From a virus, in the IMG/VR virus record IMGVR_UViG_3300042197_001846, positions 1 through 58,579 of that record: a stretch of 58,579 bases of DNA. The stretch is one strand, 5' to 3'. The position numbers were made by a program, and so were the translations under genes. Numbering within the stretch: position 1 is the first letter of the stretch; every line of letters starts with the position of its first letter. Below the pieces are notes generated by a model that was not told where the DNA came from, made no database searches, and saw only the letters and a list, made by a program, of their open reading frames with translations. Below are positions 41,791-55,253 of this stretch, piece by piece.

Positions 41791-43080
41791 TTAGATTACA
41801 TAACTGTAAAGTGCATAACGCACTGCATCAGCCATGTGACTAAAACGATTATGCTTTGGGCGCTCACGAGTTAATCCCTCACGATCATCCCACTGATATT
41901 GATCTAGCATTGCCAGAACATGTTGACAACTGTGATGAACCTTAAATCTACCTTGCTGCACTAAGGTTTGCACATAGGCAATGCCTGGTAGTACATCTTT
42001 TTTAGCGCGTGTAGTACTTAACTCATAGTTGTAGGCTAGGTCCGCTGCAAATTGTGCAGCTGCACTATCAATAAATATAGTTTCTACCGAATATTGTTCA
42101 ACAAAACGGGTAAAGTGCTCGGCGTGCTCACGTGTAGTGCGCTCCGATTCTAGGTAGTCCTGTATACAATAAAAACAGTCAGTTGCATAATCATAGGTAA
42201 TAGTTACCCAGGCTGTTTCGTCCTTGTAACCTGGATCTAGTCCAGCTATAGTTTCGCCACGTAGATCTGGCAACTCTTCTAGCACATACTCCTGGCGGAA
42301 ACCTTCATAAATCTGACCCAAGTAGCTGGTAAAGCTGGCCATATACTCCTGCTCAAACTCTGCTTTAGGCATGCTGCGGCGTGCTTCCTCCACATCCGAC
42401 TCAGCCATCCTGGTATTTTCAGTATAATCTGCTTGTATACTCACCCACTCGGGAAAGTTGGTATCAAAGCCACGACTAAAAAACTTTGAAAACCAGTTGT
42501 TTTTACCACGCGGTGTACTAATAAATATTGCCTTGCTATTCGGCTTGTCTAGTGTAGGACGTAGCTGTACATTAAATGCTTCCTCACCACGCTCGCTCAG
42601 GGCAGCCTCATCAAATATTATAAGGTCATAACTACGCCCAACTGTACTATCCACTGTACTAATAGATCCCATGCGAATAGTTGAACCATTCGACAATTCG
42701 ATTACTTTGTCCTTAAGATTATCACGTGTTACTTCCAGGTCAAAGTGCTTGATCAATTTACGCTGTAGCTCAAACGAGATTGAACTGAGATTATAGTTTG
42801 GCGATATAATTAACACATTACAGTTGGGCACTAGGGTTACCAGCTGACCTATAACATTGGCTATGTAGGTTTTGCCTAATCGCCTGGCAAGTGCTGCACA
42901 AATAAAACGATATTGTGGGCTGTTGATAGCATTGATCAATGCAATCTGCGGACGATTGATTGTATCGTAGATCCCAAGCAAACGCAGGTAGTTGTCAATA
43001 GGCAGTTTAATAAATCGACGGTCGGCTGGAAACTCGTATATATAATCACACTCTACATCTGTTCTGCTTACTGTTAACAC
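41791..43080 (-). CDS. terL: Terminase large subunit
   Basis: A 429-residue motor-nuclease. Walker A is ARRLGKT (about residue 63), Walker B is LIIFDEAA (about 151), and FISTPRGKNNW is the coupling motif. The nuclease part has GLDPGYKD (about 271), IFIDSAAAQ (about 336) and a C-terminal DAVRYALYSY with the final acidic residue. It pumps DNA into the prohead and cuts concatemers. It is short but complete. Its start overlaps the small subunit stop by one base. Confidence 0.95.
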   Translation of the reverse strand: MLTVSRTDVECDYIYEFPADRRFIKLPIDNYLRLLGIYDTINRPQIALINAINSPQYRFICAALARRLGKTYIANVIGQLVTLVPNCNVLIISPNYNLSSISFELQRKLIKHFDLEVTRDNLKDKVIELSNGSTIRMGSISTVDSTVGRSYDLIIFDEAALSERGEEAFNVQLRPTLDKPNSKAIFISTPRGKNNWFSKFFSRGFDTNFPEWVSIQADYTENTRMAESDVEEARRSMPKAEFEQEYMASFTSYLGQIYEGFRQEYVLEELPDLRGETIAGLDPGYKDETAWVTITYDYATDCFYCIQDYLESERTTREHAEHFTRFVEQYSVETIFIDSAAAQFAADLAYNYELSTTRAKKDVLPGIAYVQTLVQQGRFKVHHSCQHVLAMLDQYQWDDREGLTRERPKHNRFSHMADAVRYALYSYVI

Positions 43081-46610: not shown

Positions 46611-46854
46611 AGCATTCGGCGTTCTAGGTTCTATACTGCTTGGGGCTTCGGCCCTGCCCCAAGCTGTCGAATCCTATCGTTCTAAAAATTCAGACGGGCT
46701 TACCTTAGGTTTTATAGCGATGTGGTGGATTGGTATGGTTTCCATGACAATCTATATCGTACCCAAGGGTGATATGATTCTTATAGCAAACTATATTGCC
46801 AATCTATTTCTTGTAACAATTATTGCGAGGTATAAATTATGGCCGATTCGTTGA
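46603..46854 (+). CDS. PQ-loop / SemiSWEET-like membrane protein
   Basis: An 83-residue protein with three hydrophobic helices (about 5-20, 34-52, 58-74). The first ends in the PQ-loop motif ALPQAVESYRSKNSDGLTLGF, with the Pro-Gln pair at 18-19. One three-helix bundle is the SemiSWEET unit, which works as a dimer to move small solutes such as sugars. A transporter of this type is unusual in a phage. It lies between the exonuclease and metalloprotease genes, overlapping both. Confidence 0.8.
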   Translation: MFEAFGVLGSILLGASALPQAVESYRSKNSDGLTLGFIAMWWIGMVSMTIYIVPKGDMILIANYIANLFLVTIIARYKLWPIR

Positions 46855-47228
46855 TAAAAGTTGTAACAGCCGCTGTTACCCTACACTGGACTGCTATGCA
46901 AGAATTATGGCCAGAACTAAAAAGGCATAGCGTTCCAAAAGTTAGAATTAGCAATCGCATGTATCGCACTGCGGGTTTAGCCCATTGCGAGGTGCATGAG
47001 GTAGAATTTGCTAGCAAATTCTTTAACCGTTATAAAGCTGAGATGCTTTGCGTTATTGTACCGCATGAGCTAATCCATGTTGCAGATTATATAATTAACG
47101 GCGAAGACCCTACCGACTTTTGGCATGGGCCTGATTGGCGTCGCATGATGCTAGAATATGGCTTGCCACCAAGTGCAACCCACGAATATTATATAAATAA
47201 AAACGAACCAATTGTGAGGACGTTATAG
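46839..47228 (+). CDS. SprT-like zinc metalloprotease
   Basis: A 129-residue protein. The zinc motif HELIH is at about residues 76-80 (IVPHELIHVADYI), and a downstream His in FWHGPDWRRMM (about 95) may be the third ligand. This is the SprT/Spartan-type core, without the C-terminal zinc ribbon. Spartan proteases cut proteins cross-linked to DNA. In a phage this could clear host proteins from DNA or remove covalent complexes; inferred from family only. It is the last gene before a terminator. Confidence 0.85.
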   Translation: MADSLIKVVTAAVTLHWTAMQELWPELKRHSVPKVRISNRMYRTAGLAHCEVHEVEFASKFFNRYKAEMLCVIVPHELIHVADYIINGEDPTDFWHGPDWRRMMLEYGLPPSATHEYYINKNEPIVRTL

Positions 47229-47233
47229 AAACA

Positions 47234-47260
47234 ATAGCGGCGCAAGCCGCTATATTTTTT
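47234..47260 (+). terminator. Intrinsic terminator after the SprT-like gene
   Basis: AGCGGC-gcaa-GCCGCT followed by ATATTTTTT on the plus strand, six bases after the stop codon. Confidence 0.85.
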
Positions 47261-47265
47261 GCTAT

Positions 47266-47410
47266 ATCGCTCTAAGTTATAGAATTTATAGCGATGGCGC
47301 CAAAATTATGATATAATTATATCATAATTATTGTGCCCGTGTCAACCCCTTGGGGGTGCCGCTGGTCGGATGGTGTCTGCCGTTGGTCGGGTTGGGTTGC
47401 CGCTGATCCA
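47266..47410 (-). promoter_or_regulatory. Control cassette 3 with perfect 26-bp palindrome
   Basis: Minus promoter TTGACA (47340-47345), 18-bp spacer, TATAAT (47316-47321). The -10 is at the centre of a perfect 26-bp palindrome (47304-47329). GGCGCC (47296-47301) and hairpin ATCGCT/AGCGAT (47266-47295) follow. Boxes with GTCGG cores at 47365 and 47386, 21 bp apart; a third degenerate box is at 47400. Cassette 3 precedes the second HTH paralogue. Confidence 0.75.
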
Positions 47411-47430
47411 CCTGATGAATGGTAGGCCAA

Positions 47431-47476
47431 TTGTCGCCGTGACGACAATCTACCAGGCAAACCCGTGTATAATAGA
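47431..47476 (+). promoter_or_regulatory. Operator-like repeat and plus-strand -10 before second HTH gene
   Basis: Inverted repeat TTGTCG-ccgtga-CGACAA (47431-47448), with GGTAG and CTACC outside it. TATAAT lies at about 47470. The short leader after it folds as GTTGCAG/CTGCAAC, ending before AGGAG and the ATG. Confidence 0.55.
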
Positions 47477-47529
47477 TTCTGTTGCAGGGGACATGGGGTC
47501 GAATCTGCAACGGTTCTAGGAGTTATAGC

Positions 47530-47856
47530 ATGGCAGAAAAAGCCGTTAACTATACGCCTGAGCAAACTGCTAAGATTATAGCAGATTATCAGGCAGGGGT
47601 TGCCGTCGAGCAAATCGCTCAGGCAATGGGTAAAACCGTTCGTTCGATTGTAGCGAAACTTTCTCGTGAGAAAGTTTACGTTGCAAAACAGTACGTTACA
47701 AAAACTGGCGAAAAGCCTGTTAAAAAAGATGTAACGGCCGATGCGATCGGTGCGATCCTTCGCTTGTCAGAGAATGATATAGATTCTCTAACTAAGGCAA
47801 ACAAAAGCGCTCTCAAGGCGATTTTCGATGCCTTAGCAAACAGCAAACCGCTGTAA
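47530..47856 (+). CDS. Small HTH DNA-binding protein, paralogue 2
   Basis: 108 residues from the ATG with AGGAG seven bases upstream (a longer frame begins at 47482 but lacks this site). It is closely similar to paralogue 1 throughout: YTPEQTAKIIADYQAG, VEQIAQAMGKTVRSIVAKLS and a C-terminal LTKANKSALKAI. It keeps the same length and basic centre. A recent duplication with retained DNA-binding helix would allow both copies to act on the repeated cassettes; this is inference. Confidence 0.85.
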   Translation: MAEKAVNYTPEQTAKIIADYQAGVAVEQIAQAMGKTVRSIVAKLSREKVYVAKQYVTKTGEKPVKKDVTADAIGAILRLSENDIDSLTKANKSALKAIFDALANSKPL

Positions 47857-48224: not shown

Positions 48225-48239
48225 GGTTCTAGAAACTAT

Positions 48240-48268
48240 AACGGCCCCCAAGCGGGCCGTTATTTTTC
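48240..48268 (+). terminator. Intrinsic terminator of the early plus-strand operon
   Basis: AACGGCCC pairs with GGGCCGTT around a six-base loop, then ATTTTTC. It ends plus-strand transcription 15 bases after the last gene. Confidence 0.85.
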
Positions 48269-48298
48269 TGATAACGGTTATAAATTATAGAATTTGCA

Positions 48299-48405
48299 CC
48301 GCTATAATTTTTATAGCGGCCGCGCCATTATACTAGTATAATGGCAGGCGTGTCAAGCGATTTTGCCGCCATTCATCGGCCCCTAACTGCCGCTTGTCGG
48401 GTCGG
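48299..48405 (-). promoter_or_regulatory. Control cassette 4 with perfect 22-bp palindrome
   Basis: Minus promoter TTGACA (48351-48356), 18-bp spacer, TATAAT (48327-48332) in a perfect 22-bp palindrome (48324-48345). GGCGC and hairpin CCGCTATAA/TTATAGCGG (48299-48319) follow. Boxes with TCGG cores at 48375 and 48396, again 21 bp apart. There is no plus gene directly downstream, so its output is the minus transcript only. Confidence 0.75.
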
Positions 48406-48467
48406 TTTTGGGTGTAATTGGGTATAGTTATGGTTATTATATTGTTATAAAAAACATAACAATCTTG

Positions 48468-48550
48468 CGCCAAAATTTTACCACAAAATTTTGGCCGCTG
48501 TCAAGCGATTTTGCCGCCGTTTATCGACCCTAAGCCGCCGCCTGTCGGGT
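48468..48550 (-). promoter_or_regulatory. Control cassette 5
   Basis: Minus promoter TTGACA (48499-48504), 18-bp spacer, TAAAAT (48475-48480) inside a 10-5-10 inverted repeat (470-479 with 485-494). GGCGC at the start. Box cores at 48523 and 48544, 21 bp apart. Box 1 runs into a copy of the dispersed 11-mer. Confidence 0.7.
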
Positions 48551-48660
48551 AGTTTTCATAACGGTATAAAAAGCATAATCGTGCTAAATTCTATAAACCA
48601 TAACGATATAGACCCCATAACGATATAGGTTCTATAAACCAGCACACCCCTAGGTGTGCT
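48551..48660. repeat. Short direct repeats and hairpin in gene-free stretch
   Basis: CATAACGATATAG occurs at 48599 and 48616, and CTATAAACC at 48591 and 48632. AGCACACC-ccta-GGTGTGCT (48641-48660) is an eight-bp hairpin. I see no gene here. Confidence 0.7.
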
Positions 48661-48763
48661 GCGCCAGTGCAAAAACTCAAGTGCAAAACTTTGAGCTGGT
48701 CTGCGCCAACATTATAGTGGAAATCCTTGGGCCAAGTCAAGTAAGTTTTTCTGACCCTAAACC
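48661..48763 (-). repeat. Duplicated promoter unit A
   Basis: Order (plus strand): GCGCCAGTGC, GTGCAAAA, GCGCCAACATTATAGTG, TTGACT -35 (minus, 48735-48740), then CTGACCCTAAACC. The minus promoter TTGACT, 18 bp, TATAAT (48711-48716) has the same GGCGC start box as the cassettes but no palindrome. The dispersed 11-mer lies directly upstream of its A/T tract. Confidence 0.7.
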
Positions 48764-48841
48764 AGAGCAGGTTGCAAGCAGTCCCAAAAAAATTTGCCGC
48801 GGTTTAGGGTCAGGTTGCCACGACCACAAAAAATATTTACT

Positions 48842-48948
48842 TGCGCCAGTGCCTAATCTAGTGCAAAATCAAAATTTCTGTGGTCCTGCGCCAACATTAT
48901 AGTGCAAATCCTTGACACAAGTCAAGAGAATTTTTCTGACCCTAAACC
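48842..48948 (-). repeat. Duplicated promoter unit B
   Basis: A second copy of the unit at 48661-48763 with the same order of elements: minus promoter TTGACT (48920-48925), 18 bp, TATAAT (48896-48901). GACCACA and TGTGGTC flank its start region as an inverted repeat (48829 and 48879). It lies directly after the minus terminator at 48974-48996, so unit B restarts transcription into a region with no minus-strand gene. Confidence 0.7.
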
Positions 48949-48973
48949 GTAATAACCCACGGTCACGGGCAAT

Positions 48974-48996
48974 AAAAAACCCTGCACAGGGCAGGG
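48974..48996 (-). terminator. Intrinsic terminator after third HTH gene
   Basis: CCCTGC-cctgt-GCAGGG followed by T6 on the minus strand. Confidence 0.9.
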
Positions 48997-49010
48997 CTAT
49001 TTGTGTAGGA

Positions 49011-49331
49011 TTAAATCGATTTATCCAGTTTAGGGTCAAGTAATCGCCTGTTAAGTAAGATTAACACCGATTTATTCACCTTTTCTAGGCTTTCTAACTG
49101 ATCGCTGGGAACCCCCAATGTTTGGGCAAGTTGTTCGATATACTCCCACTTCTTTACCGGCACCTCGCCACGTTTGTTGAGGTACGTCTTTTTTTGGTAG
49201 ACACCCAAACTGGAGAGCTTGGCAATTATGCTACGGTCAGGGACGCCAAGAGTATTAGCAATCTCCAACGTAGTTGCTCCGCCTTTATATTGTTCAACAA
49301 TCTTATCTGTAATTTCTTTGGTATATTTCAT
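49011..49331 (-). CDS. Small HTH DNA-binding protein, paralogue 3
   Basis: A 106-residue protein with the same plan as the two plus-strand copies but more distant: YTKEITDKIVEQYKGG, TTLEIANTLGVPDRSIIAKLSSLGVY, a basic linker (KTYLNKRGEVPVKK) and LESLEKVNKSVLILL. The C-terminal DPKL codons are a copy of the dispersed 11-mer. It is the last gene of the minus-strand early operon. The three copies suggest a small regulator family; DNA targets are unknown. Confidence 0.85.
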   Translation of the reverse strand: MKYTKEITDKIVEQYKGGATTLEIANTLGVPDRSIIAKLSSLGVYQKKTYLNKRGEVPVKKWEYIEQLAQTLGVPSDQLESLEKVNKSVLILLNRRLLDPKLDKSI

Positions 49332-49345
49332 GGTAGTTTTTGACC

Positions 49346-50116
49346 CTAAACTGCAGCAATTTTACCAGTATTAATCTGCCAAGGCAGCAGCTCACTAATT
49401 GGTGTTTTAGCTGGTTCAACTTTTTGTCCATTAAACAATTCGCTGTCTACTAGTGGTGGTGGCATACTATCCCAGTTGTGGGGGTCTAGGATCATAGTCG
49501 ATCTGCGGTTTTTAGGATGTGCTAGCCAAATTTGACACATCATGCTCTGTAATAAGATAGTCTGGTCACCTAATTGTGTGTCCCCCACCCCATACAATTT
49601 CCAAGTACTTTCAGCTGGCCTGGTTGTACCAGCTTTGGGTCCGCTGCGATAGGCTAAACCTTGCTGTCTAATAGCTAGCAATTCTTCGTTAGTAATGTTA
49701 GGTATGTTTTGTGTTAAACTTTCATAGAGCAGTGGTTCTAGGATCCATTTAAGCTCGTGATGATCCTGCCAGTGGCTGTAGGGCTGGTTGTAGCTTTGGC
49801 GTAGTCCTAGTAAGACTAGTGGGGTAAGTTGTCCGTACTCAGGCTGTTGTGTTTGATTTTTTATTAGCAGGCTGCGGCGAACTCTGGTTAATCTGTAGAG
49901 TGTTTTGTCTAGGTCACTACTAGTATTCTTTTGCACAGTTTCTAGTGGATTGTTATAGAGTCGCCAACGACCAAAGTGTGCTACTAGTTGTGGTAGCAGC
50001 CAACTACTGTAGTTTTGCAGTGGACTATTTTCCAGGTGTTCTAAAAATTGATCGTTGCTGTAGTTAGCCCAAGTTTCTAGGCCTAGTGTGTAAATGTCTT
50101 GTTTCTTGATGTACAT
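49346..50116 (-). CDS. Hypothetical protein, 256 residues
   Basis: I do not recognise this protein. It is soluble and rich in Leu, Gln, Trp and Pro. The N-terminal half looks helical (LEHLENSPLQNYSSWLLPQLVAHFGRWR, LYRLTRVRRSLLIKNQ); the C-terminal half has IWLAHPKNRRSTMILDPHNWDSMPPPLVD. No catalytic motif is clear. It lies behind a structured leader and the promoter at 50.38 kb. Its stop codon is part of a dispersed 11-mer. Confidence 0.75.
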   Translation of the reverse strand: MYIKKQDIYTLGLETWANYSNDQFLEHLENSPLQNYSSWLLPQLVAHFGRWRLYNNPLETVQKNTSSDLDKTLYRLTRVRRSLLIKNQTQQPEYGQLTPLVLLGLRQSYNQPYSHWQDHHELKWILEPLLYESLTQNIPNITNEELLAIRQQGLAYRSGPKAGTTRPAESTWKLYGVGDTQLGDQTILLQSMMCQIWLAHPKNRRSTMILDPHNWDSMPPPLVDSELFNGQKVEPAKTPISELLPWQINTGKIAAV

Positions 50117-50239
50117 ATGTTGTAGTCGGGTTAAACCCTAGTTAGGGCTGGTTATGGGGTGGACAATTAATTAAATTAGTTTCGATTTTTAGTTTTTTAA
50201 AATTTTTTAACCGGATTTTTACTACTTAAACTCTTGTGT

Positions 50240-50350
50240 TGTTGACTTGACCCTAAGCTGCGTCATTCTCACTCAACTTGTAGCTACCGTCTGGCGGGAC
50301 CCCAACCCCCCCGACTGCTACAAGTTGATCCTTGCTTTAGTCAGTCAACA
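50240..50350 (-). ncRNA. Structured leader RNA upstream of the 256-residue gene
   Basis: An 11-bp perfect stem (50274-50284 with 50317-50327) encloses a G/C-rich loop with G7 and GGGGTCCCGCC on the minus strand. An outer stem of eight bp (50240-50247 with 50343-50350) closes the domain. It begins about 25 bases after the predicted start from the promoter at 50.38 kb. The remaining 120 bases to the ATG are A/T-rich. It could be a riboswitch-like leader or a processed small RNA. Confidence 0.6.
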
Positions 50351-50380
50351 CACATACATTAATTTTTATAATTATATATG

Positions 50381-50410
50381 ATTATAACATGCGTCTGGTA
50401 GTGATTTCAA
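50381..50410 (-). promoter_or_regulatory. Sigma70-type promoter for leader RNA and 256-residue gene
   Basis: CTTGAAA, 18-bp spacer, TATAAT on the minus strand, with AAAAAATTCA upstream. A dispersed 11-mer is 29 bases further upstream (50439). Confidence 0.8.
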
Positions 50411-50513: not shown

Positions 50514-50720
50514 TTAAAGATAGCGGTTAGTTTCTATGGTGTAGACTAAGAGTTGTGCAAATTCTGGTGTGCTCAATTCACTCTTGTAAAGTCTTAGTCC
50601 CCACTGTGTAAGGGCGGCTGCAATGGCTAGGGTGTCGTCTTGGTAGTGTATGCGTAGCTTGTCGATAAACTCACTTACGTCATCGTTTAATTCTTTTAGC
50701 TGCTTGTCGGTTAATTCCAT
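50514..50720 (-). CDS. Hypothetical helical protein, 68 residues
   Basis: An acidic, all-helical protein (ELTDKQLKELNDDVSEFIDKL) with AGGA before the ATG. It follows the terminator of RNA 1 with no promoter of its own, so it probably depends on read-through. Function unknown. Confidence 0.6.
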   Translation of the reverse strand: MELTDKQLKELNDDVSEFIDKLRIHYQDDTLAIAAALTQWGLRLYKSELSTPEFAQLLVYTIETNRYL

Positions 50721-50732
50721 GTTTTTCCTAGT

Positions 50733-50762
50733 AAAACAAAAGCCCGCACAAGGCGGGCTTTT
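50733..50762 (-). terminator. Intrinsic terminator of large RNA 1
   Basis: AAAAGCCCGC pairs with GCGGGCTTTT around five bases, then TTTTGTTTT on the minus strand. Confidence 0.9.
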
Positions 50763-51700
50763 GAACTGTACATGTTTTTAGTTTAATGGCGGTGGATTGC
50801 TTTTATGTAGCGCTACTACGACCACCATACATCTTTGTCTACACTCTAGCTAGTTGCGAATTAGCGTAAGTCGGTGTAGGCGATGCCACGAACATCGGCT
50901 GTTCTTAGTTGCTGTTCGGTCTTGGGTTCCAGCCAAGATATGGGCAACTAGCGCGGGTAGGGTTTTCACCTACATTCCCCACTTAAGGGATGTTTGCTTA
51001 CAAAACCGCGACTAACCCAGGCTCTGGGGTCAGGCCTTGCCATTTATTGTTGGCGCACTGCCCTGTTAGGGCATAATCAGTATTTTATACTAGCTGCGGT
51101 ATTATCTGACTATACATAATACGCTAGACCCTAAACCGGATCGGTTGCCAGGCTAGAGGGCTTATTTCTAGCACACCTTTGCTCTGAGCACGTTTGAGCT
51201 ACTGGCATATTTGTTAACGACTGTCTACCCCACAGCTCCAGTTAACTACGGCTTGTGGCATGTAACCCTGAGTTCATTATCCAACTGGGTTGGCAAGAGG
51301 AATAGCTCAAGGACTGTAGTGGGTGGCCGCCATGCACTGTGGCAGAATCGGCTCCACTGGTTTCTAACTCTCGTGTTAGATAACGCATAACTACGTATAT
51401 GCTACGGTAACAGGTCTTTTGGTTAACCCCTATAACTGTTAACAAACTAGGGGGCTGGTTCCTTTAGGGTGGTTAGCAGCTTCCACCATAATGTATATCC
51501 GTTCCGCAGCAGGTCAGCTACGCAAGCTCGTTGGCCGCAGATTTCAACACATTTGTATAACCACCAAAAGGCATGGGGTCAAATCAGCAGTTATACAAAT
51601 AGGTTGAGGTGGGTCTGTGTTAAGGGTAAATTCAACACAGATTAAGAACTTATCCAACAGATTAGTGTTGGCCCTGGTTCGCCCTAAACTGTCACTCAAT
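50738..51700 (-). ncRNA. Candidate large structured non-coding RNA 1, about 960 nt
   Basis: This interval runs from the predicted start of the 51.71 kb promoter to a strong terminator. Its only listed ORF (51242-51445) has no ribosome site or protein-like composition. Perfect local stems include 51551-51561 with 51590-51600 (11 bp), TCTAAC/GTTAGA, GCTAGA/TCTAGC, CTTGG/CCAAG, GCCCT/AGGGC, CCCAG/CTGGG and GTAGG/CCTAC with a UGAAAAC loop (50957-50973). Two dispersed 11-mers lie inside. Size, ornate structure and phage context recall GOLLD and ROOL RNAs, which form cage-like oligomers, but I could not match a consensus. Confidence 0.75.
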
Positions 51701-51706
51701 AATAAT

Positions 51707-51735
51707 ATTATACACTACGGGGACTCTTGTTTCAA
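51707..51735 (-). promoter_or_regulatory. Promoter of large RNA 1
   Basis: TTGAAA, 17-bp spacer, TATAAT, with an AAAAATATTC tract upstream. The -35 and spacer are also the last codons and stop of the 64-residue gene, so the promoter is embedded in a gene end. Confidence 0.9.
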
Positions 51736-51909
51736 GTGAATATTTTTAATTGCCCCTAGGTCTAGCAGTGTTTCGATTACAGTTTGTGGTAGCCCGCTAA
51801 TTGGGCCCACATAGTCTGGCAGTCCATAGCCCTGCCAATATTTACAGTTACTGCCAGTTAATTCTACCAAACCCTTGCCAACTTCAACTTCTAGCGTCAT
51901 CATTGACAT
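51715..51909 (-). CDS. Hypothetical protein, 64 residues
   Basis: A longer frame to 51945 starts inside the -10 of the upstream promoter, so the ATG at 51909, eight bases after GGAGG, is preferred. The protein is small and soluble (MTLEVEVGKGLVELTGSN). Its C-terminal HLKQESP codons double as the RNA 1 promoter. Function unknown. Confidence 0.65.
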   Translation of the reverse strand: MSMMTLEVEVGKGLVELTGSNCKYWQGYGLPDYVGPISGLPQTVIETLLDLGAIKNIHLKQESP

Positions 51910-54345: not shown

Positions 54346-55253
54346 AAGAAAAACCATACAAAAGCTGATTACTATTCCTCACCTTTTGGGCGCTACACTA
54401 CATGGCTAGCTATGCTTGTATCGAACCCTAATCAGCTTTTGTATGGCTACCGGTTACAAAATCCGGCGTTACACTTTCGGAGTAACTGTTCTACCTATCC
54501 CGCTACCCTACTTCGTTTAAGACTCGCCGCCTTTATACACGCTGATAGCCACGTGTTATGATATTGCTATCATATTCAAACACATTTGAACCTTTCTTCT
54601 GTGCTCAGACACAATCTCCCATCTAGAGTGGGCGTGGGGTATGTGCTTGAATATGATACCAGTCCCTAAACTGGATCATATTGTCTTTTTACTCTAGGAC
54701 GACAGTCCGCAAGTCTCAAATAGCCCTATGCGTAGTCCACCATCACTCGCATATTTTAGTTGACGGGACTTTCACCCGCCTCGACATTGGCCGCCTAGCC
54801 ACTAGGGAAATGTGACAGCAAGCTTATCGGGCCTTATTATCCTTACCCTAAACCGCGGCAGGTGATAGTATTGAGGCTATCAGCGTCAACCTTGTGGGTT
54901 TTGGGTTTCGCTGGAGTTGCACCAGCTCATCAGAGGATTTAGTTAGCTACCACTCCCACATGGCCCTAACTTGAGCAGTTACTCTGTCCATACCTTAGTC
55001 GGGGTAAGGTACGCCCCGTTACCGTTTTACCCTAAACCTGGATGAATGGCCCAGTGGGAGGTCTGGCAACTAACCTAAAGCCTCTAACGCTAGCTTTATC
55101 GCGCTCGGCCATTGGGTATGGCCGAGATTAGTTAGTACAGTCAGTGGTCGCTACAATGCACATTTTGTGTAATATATAAATATTTATTTAGTGTGGCAAA
55201 ATGTCATTTAAAGCTGTGGGCCTTGTCAGGCTTTACTTTCCTCACTGACTATA
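54321..55253 (-). ncRNA. Candidate large structured non-coding RNA 2, about 930 nt
   Basis: From the predicted start of the 55.26 kb promoter to the terminator. An 18-bp perfect long-range stem (54354-54371 with 54429-54446) encloses 57 bases near the 3' end. Other perfect stems: CTCGGCCAT/ATGGCCGAG, TACCTTA/TAAGGTA, AGTCAGTG/CACTGACT (5' domain) and GGCGGG/CCCGTC with UGAAAGU loop (54762-54780). Three dispersed 11-mers lie inside. The 78-residue ORF at 54325-54561 on the other strand runs through the 18-bp stem and is judged spurious. Compared with RNA 1 it has similar length, promoter, terminator and loop motif, but little overall sequence identity by eye. Confidence 0.75.

Follow-up and report, generated by a model that had tools for sequence, protein, structure and literature searches.

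Large Structured RNAs of Phages

To our knowledge, very few natural RNAs of the size and complexity considered here have been described, i.e., GOLLD, ROOL, and OLE. Two of these three are RNA cages of unknown function. The GOLLD cage is a homo-oligomer, a 14-mer with D7 symmetry, and OLE is a bacterial RNA with protein partners.

Both GOLLD and ROOL, large phage RNAs without known function, form cages and are often encoded near tRNA islands (PMC12286853). Many GOLLD RNAs of phages exceed 800 nt; their 3' region is conserved, the 5' region is less so, and phage tRNAs are sometimes found in the linker (PMC12286853). ROOL is found in phages and prophages and has a complex secondary structure, and OLE is a large ornate RNA that forms homo-oligomers (PMC12286853).

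A Predicted RNA Gene in a T5-Like Phage

The DNA analyzed here is a viral sequence of 58.6 kb of metagenomic origin, IMG/VR record IMGVR_UViG_3300042197_001846, and this whole stretch is called the window below. Its large terminase (41791-43080, minus strand) shows 47-48% identity, over the full length, to the terminases of T5-like Vibrio and Salmonella phages, and a small gene near the terminase gene matched the profile of the D5-like regulator of T5. On the basis of these similarities, we regard the record as a partial T5-like phage genome. A first-pass annotation had proposed that this record encodes a large structured RNA flanked by a promoter and a terminator of its own. Comparative evidence, i.e., homologues in the contigs L064, L084, L088, L089, and L092 and the covariation among them, supports this proposal for the predicted transcript, a putative noncoding RNA of ~968 nt (50733-51700, minus strand) called RNA1.

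The promoter, which had been recognized in the first-pass annotation, is of the sigma-70 type (TTGAAA-17-TATAAT, 51735-51707, minus strand) and matches 11 of the 12 consensus positions. The predicted transcription start is at ~51700, and the promoter is kept in L064, L084, L089, and L092. It belongs to a family of similar promoters in the window; between 51696 and 53340, four ~53-bp promoter blocks that are alike (AAATATTCACTTGAA..TATAATATTATTATTGA) precede small genes and RNA1. The intrinsic terminator, which had been called strong, consists of a stem of 11 pairs followed by TTTT, but it is located at 50763-50737 (minus strand), a few bases from where it had been placed. A terminator is found at the equivalent place in L092, with a sequence different from that in the window.

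RNA1 folds at -313.6 kcal/mol with a z-score of -4.6, against -3.1 for the opposite strand, and its five homologues fold at z-scores of -4.1 to -4.9. The density of stems had initially been regarded as telling, and the 11-bp hairpin pointed out in this respect (51551-51561 with 51590-51600) does exist, within an 18-nt inverted repeat (51544-51561/51590-51607). However, stem density alone does not exceed chance in this genome: 900-nt stretches on the same strand elsewhere, coding ones included, often have z-scores between -2 and -5, occasionally even below (8 shuffles each), and several coding windows, at -4 to -5, score as low as RNA1. Since energy does not single out RNA1, it was rejected as proof, and homologues were therefore sought; it is because these homologues covary that RNA1 is raised above chance. 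Very stable folds of the minus strand were also noticed at 46801-47700 (z ~-8) and 48601-49500 (z -6.4), with 8 shuffles, and the region 48238-49000 has no good ORF and contains several repeats and promoter-like sites.

Homologues and Their Distribution

The RNA1 homologues in the five further IMG/VR contigs measure ~850-1150 nt and show from ~76% (L088) to 93% identity to the copy in the window. L064 was found among the terminase relatives and its RNA1 copy by blastn, L084 with two DNA motifs, L088 and L089 via the 68-aa neighbor discussed below, and L092 with a third motif, whilst a fourth motif yielded no contigs beyond the same six. L083, L085, and L087 correspond to a single contig, and its RNA1 does not differ from that of the window. 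Pattern matches in L095, L096, and L097 were rejected as chance matches within protein genes. The terminase relatives number at least hundreds, and RNA1 was seen in six contigs, all from one subclade. Model R2, the region of which lies in the core, matched the six known RNA1 copies only, and a scan with it of upstream regions in another three T5-like phages gave no match. When compared by BLAST with GenBank phages, RNA1 gave matches in the terminator region only and the L092 copy gave none; a scan of GTDB genomes with an 18-nt RNA1 motif was likewise without a match, and literature searches retrieved no report of RNA1. As far as these scans reach, the family thus appears to be real but narrow.

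In the equivalent part of the genome, two other T5-like phages have ORF-poor gaps of 1.3 kb (L110:4064-5354) and 0.96 kb (L111:4974-5935). These gaps match neither R2 nor R1, the model of the 3' domain, and they possibly encode further large RNAs.

Covariation of the Predicted Helices

In both conserved domains of RNA1 together, 99% of the helix cells are paired and double, i.e., compensatory changes are seen in 17 of 99 pairs, compared with 0-2 per domain in slid controls, over which the structure is favored as it was derived from the same six sequences. For the 3' domain, alignment A7 comprises 12 helices with 58 pairs; 98.6% of its cells are paired, and 10 of the 58 pairs show double changes. 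Shuffled versions contained 5.3 ± 1.2 double-change pairs and none of 500 reached the observed 10, in a test that is inflated by the relatedness of the sequences, and 0-2 such pairs were left when the partner was slid by 1-3 columns. One pair in this domain, 188/196, is found as C-G, A-U, G-C, and U-A, i.e., in all four Watson-Crick types. In the core (alignment A8; 41 pairs), 99.2% of the cells are paired and double changes are present in 7 of the 41 pairs, against 0-2 in slid versions; in helix p5, covariation was detected in all six pairs. The two-sided changes in several separate helices go beyond what shared derivation and relatedness explain. Covariation among homologues, which a new structured RNA family should display and the lack of which the first-pass annotation had considered fatal to its proposal, is hence observed in RNA1.

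Within the helices, 23 cells contain G-U and 2 contain A-C, and therefore the minus strand is the folded strand. Judged from these comparisons, the structure is almost certainly real and under selection on the minus strand.

Architecture and Exchangeable Modules

All features in this section are on the minus strand. The ends of RNA1 can be joined by a closing helix, P1, with AGUUUA GGGCG (51680-51690) as its 5' strand and CGCC AU UAAACU (50780-50791) as its 3' strand; P1 pairing is possible in L064, L084, L089, and L092 despite different sequences, which lends it moderate support. A long 5' hairpin (51544-51604) ends in an apical loop of 8 nt, A(C/U)CC(C/U)AUG, that is fixed among the homologues on stems that vary. 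The conserved core domain (51317-51550) includes helix p5 and the region of model R2. It is followed by module C (51207-51314), a 108-nt helix insert that is present in the window and L092, present by half in L088, and absent from L064, L084, and L089. Between module C and module E, comparison of the homologues revealed a nearly invariant domain of 60 nt (51147-51206). Module E (51084-51146) is an exchangeable helix module with a GTTTAGGGT repeat, of which the window and L084 have one version, L064, L089, and L092 another, and L088 a shorter one. The 3' domain, with the 10 covarying pairs, occupies 50792-51083. Furthermore, L089 has an extra 5' block, the end of which is also found in L088, and L088 and L092 have a common extra block after the long hairpin. 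As the distribution of the modules cuts across the overall similarity of the homologues, it suggests that RNA1 modules recombine between related phages.

Hairpin p4 of the core has a 6-nt palindrome, UACGUA, in its invariant loop. It could be a kissing loop, but this is only a lead, as among so many hairpins roughly one loop of this kind would arise by chance. The GTTTAGGGT repeat is present in 10 copies in the window, compared with an expectation of 0.56, and these lie mostly in intergenic DNA (43595, 48754, 48802, 48939, 49028, 49343, 50440, 51128, 54845, and 55029). One copy lies within module E of RNA1, and another makes up one side of stem III in the hammerhead described below.

A Probable tRNA-Like Subdomain

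A segment of the 3' domain (50952-51010, minus strand) displays the tRNA order of arms, i.e., an acceptor-like stem (CGCGG/CCGCG), a D-like arm, an arm CCC/GGG, an unpaired variable AAU, and a T-arm-like hairpin (GUAGG-UGAAAAC-CCUAC) that abuts the acceptor-like 3' strand without a gap. The acceptor-like and T-arm-like stems covary in alignment A7; L088, L089, and L092 do not retain the D-like arm. ARAGORN found no tRNA in the window. It is likely that the 3' domain of RNA1 holds a tRNA-like subdomain. Unlike a tRNA (RF00005), this segment is embedded in a larger RNA and lacks the CCA end, and its likeness to tRNA is weaker than that of the phage elements described next; it reaches only 11 bits with the Rfam tRNA model (in L092).

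The likeness extends to tRNA-like elements of phages, since model R1 matched, besides the six RNA1 copies, L035 (33 bits) and L053 (22 bits), which are other T5-like phages. These matches (L035:2106-2175 and L053:3563-3628, both on the minus strand) were rejected as RNA1 homologues, being tRNA-like elements that stand on their own. The element of L035 passes the Rfam tRNA cut-off (33.4 vs. 29 bits). Both elements lack CCA, are located immediately behind a small DNA-binding-protein gene, and are followed by a hairpin and a T run; in most relatives, a plain hairpin is present at this place.

Neighboring Genes and the Possibility of a Leader

Upstream of RNA1 is a 64-aa ORF (51715-51909, minus strand) with its own promoter (51965-51937). 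It is located upstream in L064, L084, and L092 as well but was not found in L089, where a different gene takes this position, and its product was therefore rejected as a constant protein partner. On the other side, a 68-aa ORF (50514-50720, minus strand) starts 16 nt after the RNA1 terminator. The same ORF follows RNA1 in L064, L084, L088, and L089, and its start is found 14-17 nt past the terminator in these contigs and the window. In L092, an unrelated gene, in our reading a large, repetitive, tail-fiber-like one, starts 24 nt past the T run of the terminator. That RNA1 is kept while flanking genes differ, upstream in L089 and downstream in L092, is to be expected of a trans-acting unit.

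The main rival explanation is that RNA1 is a giant cis-acting leader, the fold of which decides whether the polymerase passes through the terminator into the 68-aa gene by attenuation or antitermination. A distance of 14-17 nt is too short to accommodate a promoter, so that read-through or a leader role is possible, and some read-through would be needed if the 68-aa gene is expressed from the RNA1 side; the unrelated gene of L092, at 24 nt, is also close by. However, the exchange of the downstream gene in L092, in combination with a terminator of other sequence, argues against a dedicated leader, although not against a general read-through device. Also, RNAs of ~850-1150 nt with swappable modules far exceed the size of known leaders, whilst a helix may join the 5' and 3' ends ahead of the terminator. 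Altogether, we consider a leader unlikely, albeit the most serious competitor. A ~260-nt leader before a 256-aa gene was noticed elsewhere in the window, at 50116-50410 (minus strand), with a promoter at 50410-50381 and a hairpin with an 11-bp stem (CAACTTGTAGC/GCTACAAGTTG).

We consider it probable that RNA1 is a separate gene for a noncoding RNA in a T5-like phage, and that its product acts in trans as a structural RNA. Counted in favor of such a gene were the promoter and terminator on the same strand, the homologues, their covariation, the fixed loop on changing stems, the unconserved ORFs, and the changing neighbors. Counted against it were the restriction to six sequences from one subclade, the unexceptional folding energy, the next gene at 14-17 nt, and the likeness to tRNA of only 11 bits.

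Other Explanations

The RNA1 region could alternatively function at the DNA level, as an origin, a recombination hotspot, or a packaging region rich in inverted repeats. The intergenic DNA of this genome is indeed repeat-rich, as illustrated by the 10 copies of GTTTAGGGT vs. 0.56 expected, and contains inverted repeats, and modules are exchanged. Such an element is nevertheless quite improbable given the ratio of G-U to A-C of 23 to 2, the covariation in a multibranched structure, and the retention of promoter and terminator on the same strand in the homologues.

The first-pass annotation had left the choice between a new family and a divergent member of GOLLD or ROOL, and a comparison with both favors the former. 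RNA1 resembles GOLLD and ROOL in size, style, phage origin, and setting. The tRNA arrays located 8-9 kb upstream of RNA1 in L084 and L089, and not present in the window, are reminiscent of the frequent location of GOLLD and ROOL near tRNA islands (PMC12286853), and GOLLD, too, combines a conserved 3' region with parts that vary. However, the Infernal search proposed at the outset yielded no credible match in RNA1. The GOLLD model, RF02032 (RF01998, the accession given initially, is wrong), has a gathering threshold of 150 bits and reached at best 5.1 bits over 17 nt at 54886-54902, a chance match outside RNA1. The ROOL model, RF03087 (99.1 bits), gave no match in the window at E 10, which is a weak negative as the control genomes gave none either. 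When all of Rfam was searched with cmscan at the curated thresholds, 0 matches were obtained in the window; at a permissive threshold, the window, L089, and L092 showed weak matches, mostly over the terminator hairpin, and neither GOLLD nor ROOL was among them. RNA1 differs from GOLLD in that both a 5' core and the 3' domain are conserved, with exchangeable modules in between, and in that the tRNA-like part sits within the conserved 3' domain. ROOL is likewise a large phage RNA with a complex structure, but RNA1 is longer. OLE shares with RNA1 its large size and ornateness and differs in being bacterial and in having protein partners, and no Rfam match connects it to RNA1. We consider a divergent GOLLD or ROOL very unlikely.

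With respect to coding potential, the longest ORF in RNA1 encodes 67 aa and has a TTG start without a Shine-Dalgarno sequence. Short ORFs are found on both strands. For each of those of at least 35 aa, one or more homologues show a truncation, a shift, a stop, or poor conservation. This agrees with the initial claim that no credible ORF is present. A conserved protein in the interval, which would have spoken against the proposal, was not found, and the comparison of ORFs among the homologues showed RNA1 to be noncoding, as a new structured RNA family should be. Decaying coding DNA or a pseudogene, as the short ORFs on both strands might suggest, is hardly credible, because no ORF of at least 35 aa is intact across the homologues and the helices covary.

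From these comparisons of sequences, we conclude that RNA1 represents a new, narrowly distributed family of large ornate structured phage RNAs.

A Second Large RNA Candidate with a Hammerhead

A second large RNA candidate of ~930 nt is predicted on the minus strand at 55259-54326, between a promoter (55288-55260) and a terminator (54345-54326). It is free of ORFs, has a fold with a z-score of -5.5, and is conserved in L084 and L089. It contains a hammerhead core (54933-54905, minus strand; CUGAUGAG-stem II-CGAAAC), in which stem III begins with ACCC/GGGU, stem I is AUCCU/AGGAU, and the cleavage site is GUA, with cleavage predicted after 54844. The core is nearly unchanged in L084 and recurs in L035, L040, L053, and L068 with other, covarying stem sequences and GUC as the cleavage site. 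The Rfam score of the hammerhead is low (16 bits), presumably because of a long insert in stem III. An element of ~110 nt in L092 (L092:290-400) resembles the 3' end of this second RNA (AAAAGCUG..AGGGUUCG..GCCCAAAA..GGAAUAGU..CAGCUU) and stands alone, as if modules move between RNAs.

Possible Function and Significance

According to its sequence signals, RNA1 would be transcribed by RNA polymerase from ~51700 on the minus strand up to the terminator at ~50737. The ~968-nt transcript is predicted to adopt a many-branched fold, in which a helix probably joins both ends. Comparison of the homologues indicates that the helices in the core (51550-51317) and the 3' domain (51083-50792) are constrained, and that the peripheral helices of modules C and E and of the 5' modules are gained, lost, or swapped around this conserved core. 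RNA1 would be made during infection and, by analogy with GOLLD and ROOL, most likely serve as a trans-acting scaffold or RNA-only particle. Its tRNA-like subdomain may dock a partner that recognizes tRNA, such as RNase P, EF-Tu, or the ribosome, or may be an architectural element. Far more speculatively, RNA1 might be a new class of RNA-only phage particle, the copies of which, with outer helices that can be exchanged and a tRNA-like domain embedded in each, would form a homo-oligomeric scaffold for infection, beside a ~930-nt RNA from the same locus that would be cut by its own hammerhead.

The six homologues supply a secondary structure that can be tested and natural deletions of modules that show which parts are dispensable, and the subdomain resembling tRNA points to candidate partners. 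T5-type phages have been studied extensively in the laboratory, and isolates carrying RNA1 could therefore be sought. The occurrence in T5-like phages of yet another such family, apparently without relation to the others, would point to more than one origin of giant ornate RNAs in phages.
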